Source: Hyphomicrobiales bacterium (lineage in GTDB: Bacteria; Pseudomonadota; Alphaproteobacteria; Parvibaculales; Parvibaculaceae). Taken from it: a stretch of 64,000 bases of DNA. Position 1 is the stretch's first letter; every line of letters starts with the position of its first letter. Location: assembly GCA_016124805.1 (NCBI GenBank), contig WGND01000003.1, positions 1 through 64,000 on the forward strand, in the 5' to 3' direction. The translations under genes were made by a program, and so were the position numbers. A model generated the notes under the pieces. It had not been told where the DNA came from, did no database searches, and saw only the letters and a list, made by a program, of their open reading frames with translations. Positions 6,161 through 64,000 of the stretch are shown here, piece by piece.

Positions 6161-6184
6161 GATTTGTTTTCATGGTCTGCGACA

Positions 6185-6210
6185 ATATTGACATGATACC
6201 ATGTCAGATA
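6185..6210 (+). promoter_or_regulatory. Shared TetR-type operator (site A), FMO-1
   Basis: The element ATATTGACATGAT-N4-TGTCAGATA contains a perfect 18-bp palindrome TGACATG-ATAC-CATGTCA at 6189-6206. The same 26-bp element recurs at 17759-17784 in reverse orientation with 22 of 26 bases identical, differing only in the central four. The TTGACA inside it (6188-6193) may be the -35 element of the FMO-1 promoter, although no clear -10 follows at 17 bp. The likely binder is the TetR encoded at 17783. Confidence 0.7.
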
Positions 6211-6255
6211 GGTGTTGACCTTAGGGAAGCTTCGCCCAAAAATGGGCATTGCATT

Positions 6256-6271
6256 TAGGGTGAATACCCTA
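6256..6271. promoter_or_regulatory. Inverted repeat upstream of FMO-1
   Basis: TAGGGT-GAAT-ACCCTA, six-base perfect arms, 54 bp upstream of the FMO-1 start codon and downstream of site A. It is probably within the 5' UTR or near the transcription start. It could be a second operator; no binder is evident. Confidence 0.35.
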
Positions 6272-6325
6272 GGCATCAGATAACAAGGCAGCAGCAAGCC
6301 GCCTGCAAGAAAAAGAGGAAATGCC

Positions 6326-7828
6326 ATGTCGGATACCGGAACGATGGAGAGGTCTGTCTCGGACCAGAAGTCAGAACATTTTGATGTGCTTATCGTCGGC
6401 GCCGGTATTTCCGGTGTCGGGGCGGCCTATCACCTCACGAAGCAATGCCCGGACAGAAGCTTTGTTGTGCTGGAAGCTTTGGAAAGCTTTGGCGGCACCT
6501 GGCAGATGCACCGCTATCCCGGTATCCGTTCCGACAGCGACCTCTATACTTTCGGCTACCGCTTCAAGCCGTGGACGGGGGCGCCGATTGCCACCGCGCA
6601 GGAAATCCTGACTTACATGGGCGAGGTCATTGATGAAAATGATCTGGGCGGTCACATCCGCTACAAGCACAAAATCCTGAATGCCAACTGGTCCAACAAG
6701 GACAATCAATGGACCATCGTTGCGCAGAAGCTTGATACCGGTGAGAAGATTGTCATCACCGCCAACTTCCTCTGGATGTGTCAGGGCTATTACCGTCATT
6801 CGGAAGGCTACACGCCTGAATGGGAAGGCATGTCGGATTACAAGGGCCAGATCGTGCATCCGCAGACATGGCCGGAAGACCTCGACTATAAAAACAAGAA
6901 GATCATTGTCATCGGCTCCGGCGCGACGGCGGCAACGGTTGCGCCTGCCATTGCGGGCGATGCCGCCCATGTCACCATCCTGCAGCGCTCGCCGACCTAT
7001 TTCATTCCCGGGCGCAATGCCAATGAACTCGCAGACCAGCTGCGTGTGCTTGATATTGACGAAAGCTGGATCCACGAGATCACGCGTCGTCAGATTCTGC
7101 ATGATCAGGCGGAGTTTACCCGCCGCGCCTTTGACGAACCGGACGCCGTGAAGGAAGAATTGCTGGCGGGCGTGTCGATGTTCCTGCCGCCGGAAGAAGT
7201 GAAGAAGAATTTCACGCCGACATATCTGCCCTGGCGCCAGCGTATTGCCTTTGTCCCTGATGGCGACATCTTTGAAGGCATCAAGGCGGGCAAGGCCTCT
7301 GTTGTCACTGATGAGATTGAACGCTTCACCGAGAAGGGCATTCTGCTCAAATCGGGCAAGACACTGGAAGCCGATATCATCATCACGGCTACAGGCTTTA
7401 ACCTCAGCGTGCTGGGTGACATTGACTTCAACATTGATGGCGCGCCGCTCGATTTCTCAAAGACGGTCACCTATCGCGGCATGATGTTTACCGGCGTGCC
7501 CAATATGGTCTGGGTGTTCGGTTATTTCCGCGCCAGCTGGACATTGCGTGTTGATCTGCTCGGTGATTTTGTCTGCCGTCTTCTCAATCACATGAAGAAG
7601 AAAGGCGCCAAGCAGGTCAGTGTCGCGTTGCGCCCTGAAGACAGGGACATGAAGCTCCTGCCCTGGATTGATACCGAGAATTTCAATCCCGGCTATATTC
7701 TGCGCGGTCTTCATCTGTTGCCCCAGCGTGGCGACAAGCCTGAGTGGCAGCACACCCAGGATTACTGGCTGGAAAAAGACGAGCTTCCGGAAATTGACCT
7801 GGACGAGGCCGCCTTCGTCTATAAGTGA
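6326..7828 (+). CDS. Flavin-containing / Baeyer-Villiger-type monooxygenase (FMO-1)
   Basis: A 500-residue class B flavoprotein monooxygenase. The N-terminal FAD motif VLIVGAGISGVGAAYHL is near residue 20, followed by FGGTWQMHRYPGIRSDSD. The fingerprint YKGQIVHPQTWP matches the type I Baeyer-Villiger signature FxGxxxHxxxWP. The NADPH-binding GSGATAATVAP follows. Such enzymes insert oxygen next to ketone carbonyls or oxygenate S/N atoms. The start has AGAGGAA 5 nt upstream. It is a single-gene unit between two terminators, with operator site A in front, so it is probably co-regulated with FMO-2 at 16.2-17.7 kb. Substrate unknown. Confidence 0.9.
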   Translation: MSDTGTMERSVSDQKSEHFDVLIVGAGISGVGAAYHLTKQCPDRSFVVLEALESFGGTWQMHRYPGIRSDSDLYTFGYRFKPWTGAPIATAQEILTYMGEVIDENDLGGHIRYKHKILNANWSNKDNQWTIVAQKLDTGEKIVITANFLWMCQGYYRHSEGYTPEWEGMSDYKGQIVHPQTWPEDLDYKNKKIIVIGSGATAATVAPAIAGDAAHVTILQRSPTYFIPGRNANELADQLRVLDIDESWIHEITRRQILHDQAEFTRRAFDEPDAVKEELLAGVSMFLPPEEVKKNFTPTYLPWRQRIAFVPDGDIFEGIKAGKASVVTDEIERFTEKGILLKSGKTLEADIIITATGFNLSVLGDIDFNIDGAPLDFSKTVTYRGMMFTGVPNMVWVFGYFRASWTLRVDLLGDFVCRLLNHMKKKGAKQVSVALRPEDRDMKLLPWIDTENFNPGYILRGLHLLPQRGDKPEWQHTQDYWLEKDELPEIDLDEAAFVYK

Positions 7829-59485: not shown

Positions 59486-61573
59486 TCAGAACGTAAATGT
59501 CAGACCGGCCTCAAAGCCGCGCCCGTCGCCGGGAAAATAGCGCTCGCTGCCAAAGGCATAGTCCGCCCGATCAGCATAGCGCTTGTCCAGCAGATTGGTT
59601 GCCTTGCCAAAAAGGCTGAGATTGTCGTTGAGATTGACGTCCAATCGCAGATTGAAGAGGTTGTGGCCGGGATATTTGACGCTGTTGGAGGCATCCATCC
59701 AATAGGACCCCATATGCACCCATTCCAGTTCGGCGCGTCCCAGACCCTGGGCGAAATTATAACCCAGGCGCATATTGGCGATGGTGCGCGGGGCGGTGTC
59801 CACATCATCGCCCTTGTGAATGGCTTCGGTGGAGTTGCTGAGCGTCGTCACAAGATTGTTGAAATCGTAAGTATGGCGGGCATAGGTGGCGGAACCGGCA
59901 ATGTCGAAGTCGGCAAAGAGAGGGGCTGTCATTTCCACTTCGATGCCGAGATGGTTGGTCTTGCCATTAGCCACGTTGAAGCCGTCTGCATCGCGGAAAT
60001 AGAAATTCCGCTTCTTCATGGCAAAAACGGATGTCTCGTAGAAAAGATTGCCGACGGTGCCGCGGGCACCCACTTCCAGGCTGTCAATGATTTCCGATTT
60101 GGCTTCGCCCAGCACCTGCTTTGACTGCAGGCGATACATGTCGGTTGTCTGTGGGGCGCGGCTGCCACGGGCAAGATTGACGAAGCCCGTGACCTCGTTA
60201 TTGAAAATATGTGTCAGACCGAGCTTGGGCGTGAAGTCGGCAAAGGTATCGATTGAATCGGCAGGCCGGAGGAAGCGGCCCGTGATGCCTGTGGCTGTGT
60301 TGTTTTCGTAGTCATAGCGCGTGAATTCGAAACGCGCCCCGGCTGTAAGTTGTGTTGCCGGTGTGAGCTGCCAGACACTATGGAGATAGGGTGCAATGAC
60401 GATGGCCTTGACGTCATAGTCGTAATGCACGCCCTGTGTGAAGCTGCCAATGGTCGGGTTGCTCTGGATCTCACTCAGCGAGCCATCGGTATATTCGCTG
60501 TCGAGCCCCATGATGAGGGAATTATTGTCGCCCAGCGGCATGTGATAGCTCGCCTGCAGCCCGAGGCTCTGATGCCCGTTTTCCTCTGTCGGGGTGCCGG
60601 TGAGGAAATGCATCAGGAATTTCATCTTGTTGGAACGCGCATAGGGCGTCAGGACGAGTTTGGCACCATCGGCATAGCGCTGCTCAAATCGAATGGCCGA
60701 CCGCAGCGCCCAGGCGTCTCGATAGGCTTCCGGATTGGGGTTGGATTTGCGGATGCCGTTGTCGGTATAGGACGAGACATAGCCCGCCGTTTCCTGATTG
60801 AGGTTCATGCCGAAGAAAGTGGCGGTGACGGAGTGATCGATGCCTGAGTAGTCATAACGCAAGAGGACTTTTTGCTGGTCATAGCCGGAGGCGGCCTGTG
60901 CGCCGCCATCATGGTGCAGGACAAAGCTGCCGCGCAGCCCATGCGTTGCATCGCCGATTTCGATGCCGGAGGATGCGGTGCCCTGAAGATGGGTGATGTC
61001 ATGCGGGCCGTACCAGGTGGTGATTTCGCCCTCGGGGCCATCGGCACTCGGCATGGTCAACACATTGATGAGCCCGTGAACGGCATTGGAGCCGTAGCGG
61101 GCGCTTGCCGGTCCCCGCACAACCTCAATGCCGGCGGCTTCTTCGATCATCGCATCCATCAGCGCGTTCACATTGCCAAAGCCGGCCGCGCGCAAGGGAA
61201 CACCATCTTCGAGATACAGAAAGGAGCCTGCACCCGCCCCGCCTGTGAGCACCGGGGAGCGAATGGCTGTCAGATGCTCGACACCGCTGCCCTGTTCGAT
61301 ATTGAGGCCGGGCACACGATTGAGGAGTTCGGCGGGCTGCTCGGGATGGGCAAGGGCAATGTCGGCGCTGTTGAGTTTGCTGATATTGCCCGCATGGGTT
61401 TTGCGCGATGTGCCAAAGCCCGTCGCCGTGACGATCATTTCCGATTCAATCTGGATGGCGGTTTCGGGTGTCTTTGCTGCCGGTTCTGCAGCGTGACCCG
61501 AGGGCATGCTCGCGAGAATGACGGATATTGTCAGGGCTGATGCCCCGCAGGTCGACCGGATTTTACGGGACAA
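59486..61573 (-). CDS. TonB-dependent outer-membrane receptor
   Basis: A 695-residue receptor. The signal peptide (about 1-28, ending PSGHAAEPA) is followed by the TonB box region EMIVTATG and the plug domain (about 50-170: QPAELLNRVPGLNIEQGSGVEHLTAIRSP, IEVVRGPASARYGSNAVHGLINVLT). The 22-strand barrel ends with YFPGDGRGFEAGLTFTF, a proper C-terminal Phe. The start is a TTG with GGGGGGAG upstream. It is divergent from cox11. The ligand is unknown; a copper chelate is possible given the neighbour, and no Fur-like box was found in the gap. Confidence 0.93.
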   Translation of the reverse strand: MSRKIRSTCGASALTISVILASMPSGHAAEPAAKTPETAIQIESEMIVTATGFGTSRKTHAGNISKLNSADIALAHPEQPAELLNRVPGLNIEQGSGVEHLTAIRSPVLTGGAGAGSFLYLEDGVPLRAAGFGNVNALMDAMIEEAAGIEVVRGPASARYGSNAVHGLINVLTMPSADGPEGEITTWYGPHDITHLQGTASSGIEIGDATHGLRGSFVLHHDGGAQAASGYDQQKVLLRYDYSGIDHSVTATFFGMNLNQETAGYVSSYTDNGIRKSNPNPEAYRDAWALRSAIRFEQRYADGAKLVLTPYARSNKMKFLMHFLTGTPTEENGHQSLGLQASYHMPLGDNNSLIMGLDSEYTDGSLSEIQSNPTIGSFTQGVHYDYDVKAIVIAPYLHSVWQLTPATQLTAGARFEFTRYDYENNTATGITGRFLRPADSIDTFADFTPKLGLTHIFNNEVTGFVNLARGSRAPQTTDMYRLQSKQVLGEAKSEIIDSLEVGARGTVGNLFYETSVFAMKKRNFYFRDADGFNVANGKTNHLGIEVEMTAPLFADFDIAGSATYARHTYDFNNLVTTLSNSTEAIHKGDDVDTAPRTIANMRLGYNFAQGLGRAELEWVHMGSYWMDASNSVKYPGHNLFNLRLDVNLNDNLSLFGKATNLLDKRYADRADYAFGSERYFPGDGRGFEAGLTFTF

Positions 61574-61710: not shown

Positions 61711-62361
61711 ATGAAGACGAGCCGCAAAAGCAATTTACCCTCCCTCATCCTATCGATTGCCATCCTTTCGGTGATGACGACCGCGGTGATCTATTCGCCG
61801 ACGCTTTACCGGATGTTTTGTGCGGCGACGGGCTATGGCGGCGCTGTCACGATCAACCGCAAGCTCGCAGCCGATCCTGATGAGATCGGGCCGTTGATCA
61901 CCGTGCGGTTCGACACCAATGTCGCCCCCGGTCTCAACTGGGATTTTCAGCCTGAGGTGCGGCAGGTCGAGACCAATATCGGTCTTCCGACAACGGTCTT
62001 TTTTCTGGCCAAAAACCTTTCAGATCACACTATTGTCGGGCGCGCGACTTTCAATGTGACGCCGGATGCGGCGGGGTATTATTTCAACAAGACGCAGTGT
62101 TTCTGCTTTGAGCAGGAGAAGCTGGCACCCGGGGAAACCGCCCGCATGCCGGTGGTTTTCTATGTTGATCCGGAATTCATGCATGACATTGATTCCAAGG
62201 GAATCACGGCGATTACGCTGTCCTATACCTTCTTTGAGCAGGATTCAGGGCAGGAGGCGGTTGAGGCCGCCCGTCCGCTGAAGAGTGCCTCGGCGGAGCA
62301 GGAAGAAAAGCTCAAGACGGCTACCTCGGCTGAATTCAGCAATGAAGTGCACCGCAAATAG
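61711..62361 (+). CDS. ctaG: Cytochrome c oxidase assembly protein Cox11/CtaG
   Basis: A 216-residue copper chaperone that inserts CuB into cytochrome oxidase subunit I. One N-terminal helix (about 8-28) ends in YRMFCAATGYGG, followed by a periplasmic immunoglobulin-like domain. The copper-binding CFCF motif lies in FNKTQCFCFEQEKLAPGE, with the family segments ITVRFDTNVAPGLNW and ITLSYTFF. The start is MKTSRKSN. It stands alone, with no ctaC/D/E or other oxidase genes in the window, next to a TonB receptor. Confidence 0.93.
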   Translation: MKTSRKSNLPSLILSIAILSVMTTAVIYSPTLYRMFCAATGYGGAVTINRKLAADPDEIGPLITVRFDTNVAPGLNWDFQPEVRQVETNIGLPTTVFFLAKNLSDHTIVGRATFNVTPDAAGYYFNKTQCFCFEQEKLAPGETARMPVVFYVDPEFMHDIDSKGITAITLSYTFFEQDSGQEAVEAARPLKSASAEQEEKLKTATSAEFSNEVHRK

Positions 62362-62403
62362 ATTTCCGGGTGTCTGCCTGATTTCGATGCTTTTTGTGAA
62401 GTT

Positions 62404-62418
62404 GCCTAAATTTTAGGC
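62404..62418. promoter_or_regulatory. Palindrome upstream of the guanidine operon
   Basis: GCCTAAA-T-TTTAGGC, perfect seven-base arms, centred about 118 bp upstream of the predicted sigma-54 start site. The distance is typical for an enhancer-binding activator site. A further repeat, AAGCGC-N8-GCGCTT, lies at 62476-62495 just upstream of the -24 element. Confidence 0.4.
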
Positions 62419-62501
62419 GCTGAAAATACCCCTGCTGCCCCCTTTGGATGCCAACTGACAGGTTTTTCTTCGGAAAAGCGCGGAATAAAGCGCTTGCCTT
62501 G

Positions 62502-62518
62502 TTGGCACAGCCTTTGCG
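62502..62518 (+). promoter_or_regulatory. Sigma-54 promoter (-24/-12) of the guanidine operon
   Basis: TTGGCACAGCCTTTGCG fits the sigma-54 consensus TTGGCAC-N4-TTTGC with the required spacing between the GG (62504-62505) and GC (62516-62517). The expected start site, about 12 nt downstream of the GC, coincides with the 5' edge of the riboswitch. Nitrogen regulation through NtrC or a dedicated activator is implied. Confidence 0.75.
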
Positions 62519-62530
62519 ATTACTCAGTCA

Positions 62531-62642
62531 GGCAGCGGCTAGGGTTCCGGCTCCGTGATCACGGGGTGCTGGTCCGAGAGCCGCAACCCGGTCGGTGAAC
62601 AGCGGCCAGGGTACACGGCGGGACAAAAGCCCGGGAGAGCGA
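62531..62642 (+). ncRNA. Guanidine-I riboswitch (ykkC RNA)
   Basis: The conserved core elements occur in order: CTAGGGTTCCGG (62539-62550), TGGTCCGAGAGCCG (62570-62583), and ACACGGCGGGA-CAAAAGCCCGGGAG (62613-62637). This is the ykkC / guanidine-I aptamer. It lies directly 5' of guanidine-degradation genes. No T-run terminator follows; small hairpins at 62774-62789 and 62794-62809 (CATGGC-GCAT-GCCATG) lie before the ribosome site and may be part of a translational or anti-termination platform. Confidence 0.93.
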
Positions 62643-62832
62643 CGTAATGCGAGGATTGGCATTACCACCGCCTTGTCACGCCGATCCTCCACCTTGGATG
62701 CCGCCATGTCGGGACGACCCGATATGGCTTCACAACCCCTCAGGGGCATTGCCTGGACGGCCAGGTCTCTCCCAATGCATTCGCGCATTGGCGCATGGCG
62801 CATGCCATGTGATCGACGACAGGAGGCATGAG

Positions 62833-63657
62833 ATGACAGCGGCATCTCGACCCGATCCATACGCAGCCGAAAAGGCGCGCTATCAGGAACTTTATCAAAA
62901 GGGAAAAGCAGCACGGCGTGACTTCAGTGAAGTGAAGCGCAATCCGGCTCAGATTGACGAGGCACTTATCGTCTCGCGTGAAACCGTGCCGGGCGGCTGG
63001 GGTCATTCGGTGCATCTCTCGCCCGGACAGACCCTGCGGCTGATCAACAAGACAAAAACCAAGGGCGTGAGCCTGCAGATTTTCAATGCGCATGACCGCA
63101 GTGAGCGTTTCAACGCGGGCGATACGGTGAAGCTGCAATGGAGCGCGCGCCTGCATCATGGCAAGCTTCTCTATTCAGACATGGGCCGCGTATTGGCGTC
63201 GATCAGCGATGATCGCTTCGGGCGCCATGATGCGCTGACCGGCGGCTCCACGGCGCAAACCAACGAAACCAAATATGGCGACAAGGCGCTTCGCAGCACG
63301 CGCGGCAATTTCATTCTTCTGGCCAGCAAGCACGGGCTGTCGCGGGCCGATATTGCTCCCTGCCTGACATTGTTTGCGCCGGTCATTGTCGATGACAAGG
63401 GCGTGCTCGTCTGGGAAGGGCCTGAGGCGGCGGCAGGTGACTATGTCGATCTGCGCGCCGAAATGGACATTCTCGTCTTTGTCTCCAACTGCCCCCATCC
63501 CCTGTCACCCGGCGGCTTTGATCCGGAGCCGATTGAGGCGCTGGTCTGGCGCTCAGGCGATGTACCGGCAGATGATTTCTGCCGCACCTCATGTGAGGAG
63601 GCGCGTCGCGGCTTTGACAATAATGAGGCCCTTCTGGCGACGGGAGGTGTGAAATGA
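62833..63657 (+). CDS. DUF1989 (urea carboxylase-associated) protein 1, carboxyguanidine deiminase subunit
   Basis: A 274-residue DUF1989-family protein. It contains VPGGWGHSVHLSPGQTLRLINKTKTKGVSLQIFNAHDRSERFNAGDTVKLQW, the candidate metal ligands in HHGKLLYSDMGRVLASISDDRFGRHDALTGGS, and a C-terminal NCPHPLSPGGFDP. It was formerly called urea amidolyase-associated protein 1. In guanidine-riboswitch operons this protein and its partner convert carboxyguanidine for the guanidine carboxylase route. AGGAGG precedes the ATG. It overlaps the next gene by 4 bp. Confidence 0.9.
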   Translation: MTAASRPDPYAAEKARYQELYQKGKAARRDFSEVKRNPAQIDEALIVSRETVPGGWGHSVHLSPGQTLRLINKTKTKGVSLQIFNAHDRSERFNAGDTVKLQWSARLHHGKLLYSDMGRVLASISDDRFGRHDALTGGSTAQTNETKYGDKALRSTRGNFILLASKHGLSRADIAPCLTLFAPVIVDDKGVLVWEGPEAAAGDYVDLRAEMDILVFVSNCPHPLSPGGFDPEPIEALVWRSGDVPADDFCRTSCEEARRGFDNNEALLATGGVK

Positions 63658-64000
63658 GTGTCCGCAACCCGTCTGACGCTTTTTATGATTTCATTGTGCC
63701 TGCCAGGCAGCCCTGGTCCCATGTGCTGAAGGCCGGTCAGGTGCTGCGCATTGTCGATCTTGAGGGGCAGCAGGCCGTCGATACGCTGTTTTATGCCGCC
63801 GATGATCACGAGGAACGCTATAGCGCACAGGATACGATCCGCGCGCAGGGCACGCCCTATATCATTGCTGGAACGAAGCTCCTGTCGAGCGAGGGCCGCC
63901 TGATGGCGACCATGCTGGCGGACACGGCCGGCGGTCATGATACATCTGCCGGTGCCTGCAGTGCGGAAAGCAACACGGTGCGCTTCGGGCATGATAAGAA
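63654..64000 (+). CDS. DUF1989 protein 2, carboxyguanidine deiminase subunit (partial)
   Basis: The first 115 codons of the partner protein, cut by the window end. It reads SDAFYDFIVPARQPWSHVLKAGQVLRIVDLEGQQAVDTLFYAADDHEERYSAQDTIRAQG and continues into GTKLLSSEGRLMATMLADTAGGHDTSAGACSAESNTVRF. It belongs to the same DUF1989 family as the gene before it and starts at ATGA. A guanidine/urea carboxylase and allophanate hydrolase are expected downstream, outside the window. Confidence 0.9.
   Translation, partial: MSVRNPSDAFYDFIVPARQPWSHVLKAGQVLRIVDLEGQQAVDTLFYAADDHEERYSAQDTIRAQGTPYIIAGTKLLSSEGRLMATMLADTAGGHDTSAGACSAESNTVRFGHDK

Follow-up and report, generated by a model that had tools for sequence, protein, structure and literature searches.

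The region analyzed here lies at the end of a 64,000-nucleotide (nt) stretch of a Hyphomicrobiales genome (the window, positions 1 to 64000 of contig C7 in the 3.2-Mb genome G000) and forms the regulatory region of a guanidine-assimilation operon consisting of cgdA, cgdB, a guanidine carboxylase gene and an allophanate hydrolase gene (Table 1). A preliminary description of this DNA had reported two DUF1989 genes downstream of a riboswitch and had advised looking for a guanidine carboxylase gene beyond them. Both DUF1989 genes were identified, the second reaching contig position 64277, and a urea/guanidine carboxylase gene and an allophanate hydrolase gene were found further along the operon. 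Genes overlap at the cgdA/cgdB and carboxylase/allophanate hydrolase junctions, and the presence of all four in a single operon marks the guanidine carboxylase pathway; the family models are still listed under urea names. We take the DUF1989 pair to be carboxyguanidine deiminase, and COG3665 to be the same DUF1989 family. A paper by Schneider et al. reporting carboxyguanidine deiminase is cited in the accessible part of a review (PMC12186494). The upstream neighbor of the region is a cox11/ctaG gene ending at 62361. A cgdA start at an upstream ATG (62647), whose frame continues into cgdA, was ruled out: in loci L014 and L015 the frame is not open that far and starts only ~167 nt past the aptamer, and relatives align from near 62833.

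Table 1. Features of the control region and of the operon behind it, in contig positions
Feature	Position	Strand	Basis or remark
NtrC-type palindrome TGCCTAAATTTTAGGCG	62403..62419	+	100 bp before the sigma-54 element; differs from TGC-N11-GCA by one mismatch
Sigma-54 -24/-12 element TGGCACAGCCTTTGC	62503..62517	+	10/11 consensus positions; conserved position
Guanidine-I riboswitch aptamer (RF00442)	62528..62639	+	80.5 bits versus gathering score 63
Predicted transcription start	62529 (12 nt past the -12 C)	+	from promoter geometry
Shine-Dalgarno mimic GAGGATTGGC of the guanidine-I expression platform	62651..62660	+	leader comparison
Anti-Shine-Dalgarno GCCGATCCTC	62680..62689	+	10-bp helix with the mimic; the nearby Shine-Dalgarno partner of genera g1/g2 is missing here
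Probable guanidine-II hairpin P1 (ATGTCGGGACGACCCGATAT)	62706..62725	+	22.1 bits for the aptamer, below gathering 32
Probable guanidine-II hairpin P2 (GCCTGGACGGCCAGGT)	62751..62766	+	16 letters identical to P. sedimenti (G006)
Shine-Dalgarno AGGAGG of cgdA	62821..62826	+	sequence
cgdA-type gene (DUF1989, UAAP1), carboxyguanidine deiminase subunit by family	62833..63657	+	family matches
cgdB-type gene (DUF1989, UAAP2)	63654..64277 (beyond the window end at 64000)	+	family matches
Urea/guanidine carboxylase gene	ends 67911 (outside the window)		after cgdB; family matches
Allophanate hydrolase gene	67908-69710 (outside the window)		after the carboxylase gene; family matches

The riboswitch previously named as a ykkC/guanidine-I aptamer is matched by the Rfam family RF00442 well above its gathering score. 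It fits the covariance model of that family, its core letters are intact in the model alignment, and it is the sole copy found in the genome. The -24/-12 element that had been placed at 62502-62518 is also real, with limits at 62503 and 62517, and carries GG at -24 and GC at -12 at the fixed spacing of sigma-54 promoters. According to the preliminary description, the aptamer core began within about 10 nt of the transcription start; the adjacency stands, and the distance is shorter than described, the predicted start being aptamer position 2. The 5' end of the RNA would apparently coincide with the first base of guanidine-I or lie a few bases away. The genome encodes rpoN (238.8 bits to Sigma54_DBD, over the model cut-off), whose absence had been raised as a possible objection. 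A simple scan of positions 62300-62900 detected neither an intrinsic terminator nor a sigma-70-like site, and a sigma-70 promoter for the operon was rejected on this basis.

The association of promoter and aptamer was examined in 107 guanidine-I loci, of which 23 came from 61 relatives (window included), 29 were new from 385 genomes of the window's class and a search of 398 phylum genomes added 55; what is called below the rest of the phylum sample probably corresponds to Gammaproteobacteria in the GTDB sense. One match at a contig edge (G279:C347:1-102) was left out, and L218 and L219, found later and both with a sigma-54 element, stand outside the 107. Seven of the 107 riboswitch matches score below the Rfam gathering threshold. 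An element was called when at least 9 of the 11 consensus letters were found within 100 nt upstream, a rule set after the sites had been seen, and downstream genes were labeled by motif, by BLAST cluster and in some cases by eye. A sigma-54 element was found in 88 of the 107 loci (21 scoring 11, 51 scoring 10 and 16 scoring 9), including 79 of the 92 assimilation-type loci, and at least one element-bearing locus occurs in 40 of 48 genera and 26 of 31 families. Dinucleotide shuffles of the 107 upstream stretches yielded a mean of 2.7 elements and a maximum of 6 in 100 rounds, the interval 300-400 nt upstream yielded none in 107 loci, and the reverse strand yielded one; a chance promoter is ruled out by these controls.

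The position of the element is also conserved. Within the family of the window it lies 24-25 nt before the aptamer in 22 of 23 loci (window included), and throughout the class the predicted start ranges from 7 nt upstream to 6 nt downstream of the first aptamer base, coinciding with the second base in 24 of 52 loci and with the third in nine. A start so near the first aptamer base would place the aptamer at, or next to, the 5' end of the transcript in this class. For the rest of the phylum sample, the predicted start is 23-73 nt before the aptamer. These results emphasize that a guanidine-I riboswitch preceded by a sigma-54 element is the rule in the sampled phylum loci, and the promoter firing into a riboswitch, originally proposed for the window only, recurs both in its class and in the rest of the phylum sample.

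Among the 19 loci that lack an element are L024, three loci of genus g46 in family f42, three of family f22 and four of the five loci with an EamA transporter gene, as well as those that carry a ureohydrolase or APC permease gene. One of the five EamA-transporter loci, the exporter type, carries an element, and the contrast of exporters with the assimilation loci is weak, as all five riboswitch matches are below gathering. The three f42 g46 loci (L044, L049 and L053) share a similar stretch ending in CTTTGCTGTAATTG[TC]ATACA directly before the aptamer, which is perhaps another promoter and operator. When L024, from a genome of the genus (G009) that keeps the riboswitch, was compared by eye with L033, a few tens of bp appeared to be gone, either by a natural promoter deletion or by an assembly fault.

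Other guanidine-I loci have different neighboring genes. L041 and L045 have an 11/11 sigma-54 element and a guanidine-I riboswitch before a TonB-dependent receptor gene (with a Plug domain for L041), which suggests outer-membrane uptake of guanidine or of a guanidino compound. A long open reading frame of the window itself (59486-61573, minus strand, upstream of cox11) resembles a TonB-dependent receptor gene by eye. Outside the window's class, L115, L116, L122 and L128 represent a further guanidine-I operon, encoding an NMT1-type binding protein (L115) and then a fatty-acid-desaturase-like protein (L116; L122 and L128 look similar by eye), which may be an oxygenase acting on guanidino compounds. 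L127 and L131 (G709:C3:20710-21394) form a divergent guanidine-I pair about 430 bp apart, with their own sigma-54-like elements at -49 and -54.

A sigma-54 promoter depends on an activator, and the palindrome noted earlier at 62404-62418 has an arm of seven perfect base pairs, lies at enhancer distance and is one mismatch from a motif enriched at such promoters. This motif, TGC-N11-GCA, is the NtrC motif given in the available text of PMC10746234. Its exact form was found upstream in 14 of the 22 promoter-bearing loci of the family (shuffle mean 1.7, maximum 5), in 13 of 30 other class loci (mean 2.9, maximum 9) and in 9 of 36 loci of the rest of the phylum sample (mean 3.5, maximum 8), and, of nine spacer lengths compared, 11 gave the best result in each group. 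Upstream of the window's element there are three sites with one mismatch and no exact one, and the palindrome resembles TGCTCAAACTTGAGGCA, TGCACAAACAAAAGGCA and similar sites located 78-110 bp before the element in relatives. As for the NtrC-class activator gene that was to be sought, NtrC is encoded elsewhere in the genome (705.5 bits to TIGR01818, cut-off 558.6). The sigma-54 activator domain has nine matches in the genome, of which four are strong: NtrC and NtrX, both exceeding their model cut-offs, FlbD and an unassigned protein (C7:209657).

Four strong activators, together with a palindrome that departs from the exact NtrC motif, leave room for a promoter driven by NtrX, FlbD or the unassigned protein and reporting something besides nitrogen limitation. 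We consider this unlikely, given that exact TGC-N11-GCA sites with the right spacer are enriched in all three groups and that the operon yields ammonium. Published work points the same way in its accessible parts: a B. cenocepacia urea carboxylase gene depends on ntrC (PMC5491218), and NtrC control is predicted for atzF in Rhizobiales and for uctABC in several taxa (PMC5343134). Among genes of this kind, the B. cenocepacia gene is the only one with NtrC-dependent expression in the literature searched; in the ntrC mutant table it stands at -6.0, and two neighboring urea-carboxylase-related genes are marked "na(m)". The preferred activator remains NtrC.

Downstream of guanidine-I, the leader contains a pair of hairpins (62706-62766) that the preliminary description had omitted. 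Both GGACGACC and GGACGGCC have ACGR loops closed by GC pairs, the signature of guanidine-II riboswitches, and a permissive Rfam search of the leader places guanidine-II (RF01068) at 62706-62765 with a score below gathering. The comparison was extended to 28 family genomes with a cgdA match, leaving 27 after exclusion of G002, which has only a 27% identical paralogue. Paired ACGR hairpins are found just upstream of cgdA in all 27 loci, with an Rfam match of at least 22 bits there in 11. Matches over gathering occur in 8 of the 40 family genomes searched, four of them directly upstream of cgdA (G022, G001, G016 and P. sedimenti G006, the last with 33.0 bits; range 33.0-37.9 bits) and four elsewhere. 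The linker between the hairpins measures 26 nt in the window and 12-34 nt over the 27 loci, and the longer linkers would explain the low scores of the loci that have them.

Covariation was evaluated over 21 distinct sequences. Base pairs form in 95.2% of the cells, against 19-54% in slid versions, and both partners change in 7 of the 13 pairs, a count matched by 6 of 500 shuffles. The 35 cells changed on two sides and the covariation score of 0.410 were not reached in any of 500 shuffles. The extraction rule required the inner four pairs of each hairpin, so the independent support from covariation comes from the outer pairs only; outer pair 3-16, for instance, varies between C-G, G-C, A-U and U-A. 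Ordinary leader hairpins, with no guanidine-II aptamer, would be compatible with the sub-threshold score in the window and with the fact that only 4 of 27 cgdA loci have an over-gathering match just upstream. We regard this as very improbable, because the position and the ACGR loops are the same in every locus, the better-scoring matches, four of them over gathering, fall at that same place, and the pairs covary. The hairpins are a probable guanidine-II aptamer.

The window therefore holds both candidate aptamers in one leader, with a gap of 66 nt and no gene between 62639 and 62706, and so do G015 and G019 (P. indicum). From the end of guanidine-I to the cgdA match, the three tandem genomes have 183-194 nt containing hairpins and no gene. 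A further 19 of the 27 family genomes have 1.3-3.3 kb in its place, and in two of the remaining five guanidine-I lies ~3 kb upstream. The hairpin pair occurs within the leader in 3 of the 107 guanidine-I loci, in none of 107 upstream controls and in 1 of 2140 leaders with shuffled letters. In relatives, the space between guanidine-I and the guanidine-II-cgdA unit is occupied by permease and ATPase genes (P. sedimenti L092 and L091) or by binding protein, permease and ATPase genes (L094). Close copies of the usual guanidine-binding protein are absent from G000, where the single match (34% identity) stands at the head of a different transporter cluster that carries a sigma-54 element of its own. 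The tandem would have arisen where the ATP-binding cassette (ABC) transporter genes that separate the two riboswitches in relatives are absent. It would have been made at least once, and perhaps twice, by loss of those genes. The CgdA proteins of G000 and the other two tandem genomes are 61-62% identical, and none of 200 bootstrap trees unites the three; as the backbone of the CgdA tree is unresolved, one or two origins are possible.

Two further observations concern transporters and promoters around these operons. Elsewhere in G000 (L215, G000:C6:32000-40500) there is a second sigma-54-like element, TGGCACGTGACTTGC, at C6:38237-38251, 57 nt before an ABC-transporter-like cluster, which is too little room for a guanidine-I riboswitch; a glutamine-synthetase-like gene (by eye) follows the cluster. 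In P. indicum (L095) a similar transporter cluster lies directly upstream of the guanidine operon. Additionally, a separate sigma-54 promoter before guanidine-II was considered for the 24 non-tandem loci and rejected, with weak elements (9/11) in 4 of 24, three of them alike in genus g3.

The expression platform of guanidine-I can be traced through the family. A Shine-Dalgarno mimic (GAGGATTGGC or one letter off) can pair over 10 bp with an anti-Shine-Dalgarno (GCCRATCCTC) in 20 of 22 family leaders. Where genera g1 and g2 have a non-tandem leader, this anti-Shine-Dalgarno could alternatively pair over 7-8 bp with the Shine-Dalgarno of the first gene, 24-37 nt away. Genera g3 and g5 have different letters here and shorter matches, of 7 bp and 5-6 bp respectively. 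For relatives in which a transporter gene comes first, the most plausible reading of the platform is a translational ON switch, in which the mimic would free the Shine-Dalgarno when guanidine holds the aptamer. The three tandem leaders keep the mimic helix intact, and their best Shine-Dalgarno match is 5 bp at a distance of 115-131 nt. In the free fold of the window's leader, the cgdA Shine-Dalgarno pairs mostly (probability ~0.35) with 62765-62770, the 3' edge of P2. A cruder terminator scan of the 107 leaders returned candidates in five of the 67 leaders of the window's class and in four of the 40 others; it requires perfect stems and passed over a terminator visible by eye in L063, and it was not used outside the class. 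In the tandem leaders, guanidine-II, adjacent to the cgdA Shine-Dalgarno, most likely controls cgdA translation.

In the tandem leaders, guanidine-I may have either kept or lost its role. One riboswitch might be a relic: the promoter and guanidine-I would work, and after the loss of the transporter genes guanidine-II alone would control cgdA while guanidine-I decays. The tandem anti-Shine-Dalgarno, lacking the nearby partner that it has in g1 and g2, fits such a history. On the other hand, guanidine-I scores as high in the three tandems (80.5, 84.7 and 84.1 bits) as in relatives, and each of them preserves the full 10-bp mimic helix despite the divergence of their CgdA proteins and a tree that never unites them. 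We hold the relic to be doubtful, though it deserves some weight. The argument that guanidine-I still works in the tandem is based on its good preservation in two diverged lineages.

Under the reading that we favor, nitrogen limitation would lead NtrC, bound at the upstream palindromes, to activate sigma-54 RNA polymerase at 62503-62517. The resulting RNA, with its 5' end at the start of guanidine-I or a few bases from it, would then face two guanidine checks in series, guanidine-I at the 5' end and guanidine-II before cgdA. The sequence elements, their conservation and the operon are established; NtrC as the activator, the start site, ligand binding and the ON direction of the switch are what we infer from them. 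The stacking of nitrogen-type control on guanidine gating, as proposed in the preliminary description, is supported by rpoN, ntrC, the recurring pairing and the enriched motif, with NtrC as the presumptive activator.

Several observations weigh against this reading. By the rule of at least 9 of 11 letters, 13 of the 92 assimilation-type loci lack the element, and L024, a relative, has guanidine-I without a sigma-54 promoter. The exact pattern TGGCACN5TTGC has 14 matches on both strands of the 3.2-Mb genome against 6 for its reversed control; a chance match in one given 100-nt stretch is rare, yet the pattern alone is no proof. The NtrC-type site of the window is one mismatch off, and since shuffled sequence often contains such sites (15.2 of 22), the palindrome alone proves little. 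The kinase gene beside NtrC is nearest to NtrB and falls slightly short of the cut-off (230.2 versus 240). The tandem guanidine-II matches are all below gathering (22.1 and 23.4 bits, the third not listed), and folding with the aptamers forced gave no clear change in Shine-Dalgarno exposure (mean unpaired 0.33-0.43). With these points taken into account, we still think it probable that an NtrC/sigma-54 promoter, guanidine-I at the 5' end and guanidine-II before cgdA together control this assimilation operon. A stronger proposal has nearly an even chance of being right: a three-input leader, combining nitrogen status via NtrC-sigma-54 with a guanidine-I and a guanidine-II check, possibly of different specificity (guanidine/methylguanidine) and mechanism, and representing a first tandem of guanidine classes produced via transporter loss. 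The way in which the fused leader would integrate these signals is likewise our inference.

These possibilities bear on why bacteria have several guanidine riboswitch classes and on when guanidine acts as a toxin and when as a nitrogen source, questions that are not settled. With a sigma-54 element in most assimilation-type loci, guanidine is probably read together with nitrogen status in these bacteria, and induction tests with guanidine as the sole nitrogen source mix the two signals. The fused leader is, furthermore, a ready-made natural construct for learning what two classes achieve for one ligand.

Both riboswitch classes, the pathway and operons with the two classes apart were known before, as stated in the available portions of PMC12186494 and PMC12508155. 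In the open-licence PubMed Central literature searched, we found no account of a tandem of guanidine classes, of sigma-54/NtrC joined to a guanidine riboswitch, or of a fixed distance between start and aptamer. Sigma-54 control of COG3665 has been predicted (PMC12316311, accessible text). The predicted sigma-54/NtrC regulons differ from the present case, as the parts available of PMC12316311 and PMC5343134 make no link to a guanidine riboswitch and "guanidin" appears 0 times in the former. Leaders with two aptamer classes for one ligand are known from the SAM-II/SAM-V tandems, and the 2022 survey describing them (PMC9481103) states in its accessible text that none of the four guanidine classes was seen in a tandem, and it counts guanidine-I among the classes without such an arrangement.

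Among the closest known systems is the guanidine carboxylase operon of Vreelandella boliviensis, which also has guanidine-I at the operon start and guanidine-II within, and where guanidine serves as a nitrogen source. There, guanidine-I is guanidine-specific and guanidine-II accepts methylguanidine too. Unlike in the window, guanidine-II precedes the carboxylase gene inside the operon, and guanidine-I is presumed to act through a terminator; the available text (PMC12508155) contains the term NtrC 0 times and "sigma" once. The operon on plasmid pRL9 of Rhizobium johnstonii 3841 resembles the window in its promoter, with TGGCACGCACTTTGC starting 27 nt before guanidine-I (84.9 bits), and its order is guanidine-I, ABC transporter, guanidine-II (40.2 bits), cgdA, cgdB, uca and atzF. 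It differs in having transporter genes between the riboswitches, and its guanidine-II (L217, 6923-6972) overlaps the 3'-terminal part of the annotated ATPase gene (6171-7001), so that the riboswitch RNA is also coding sequence.
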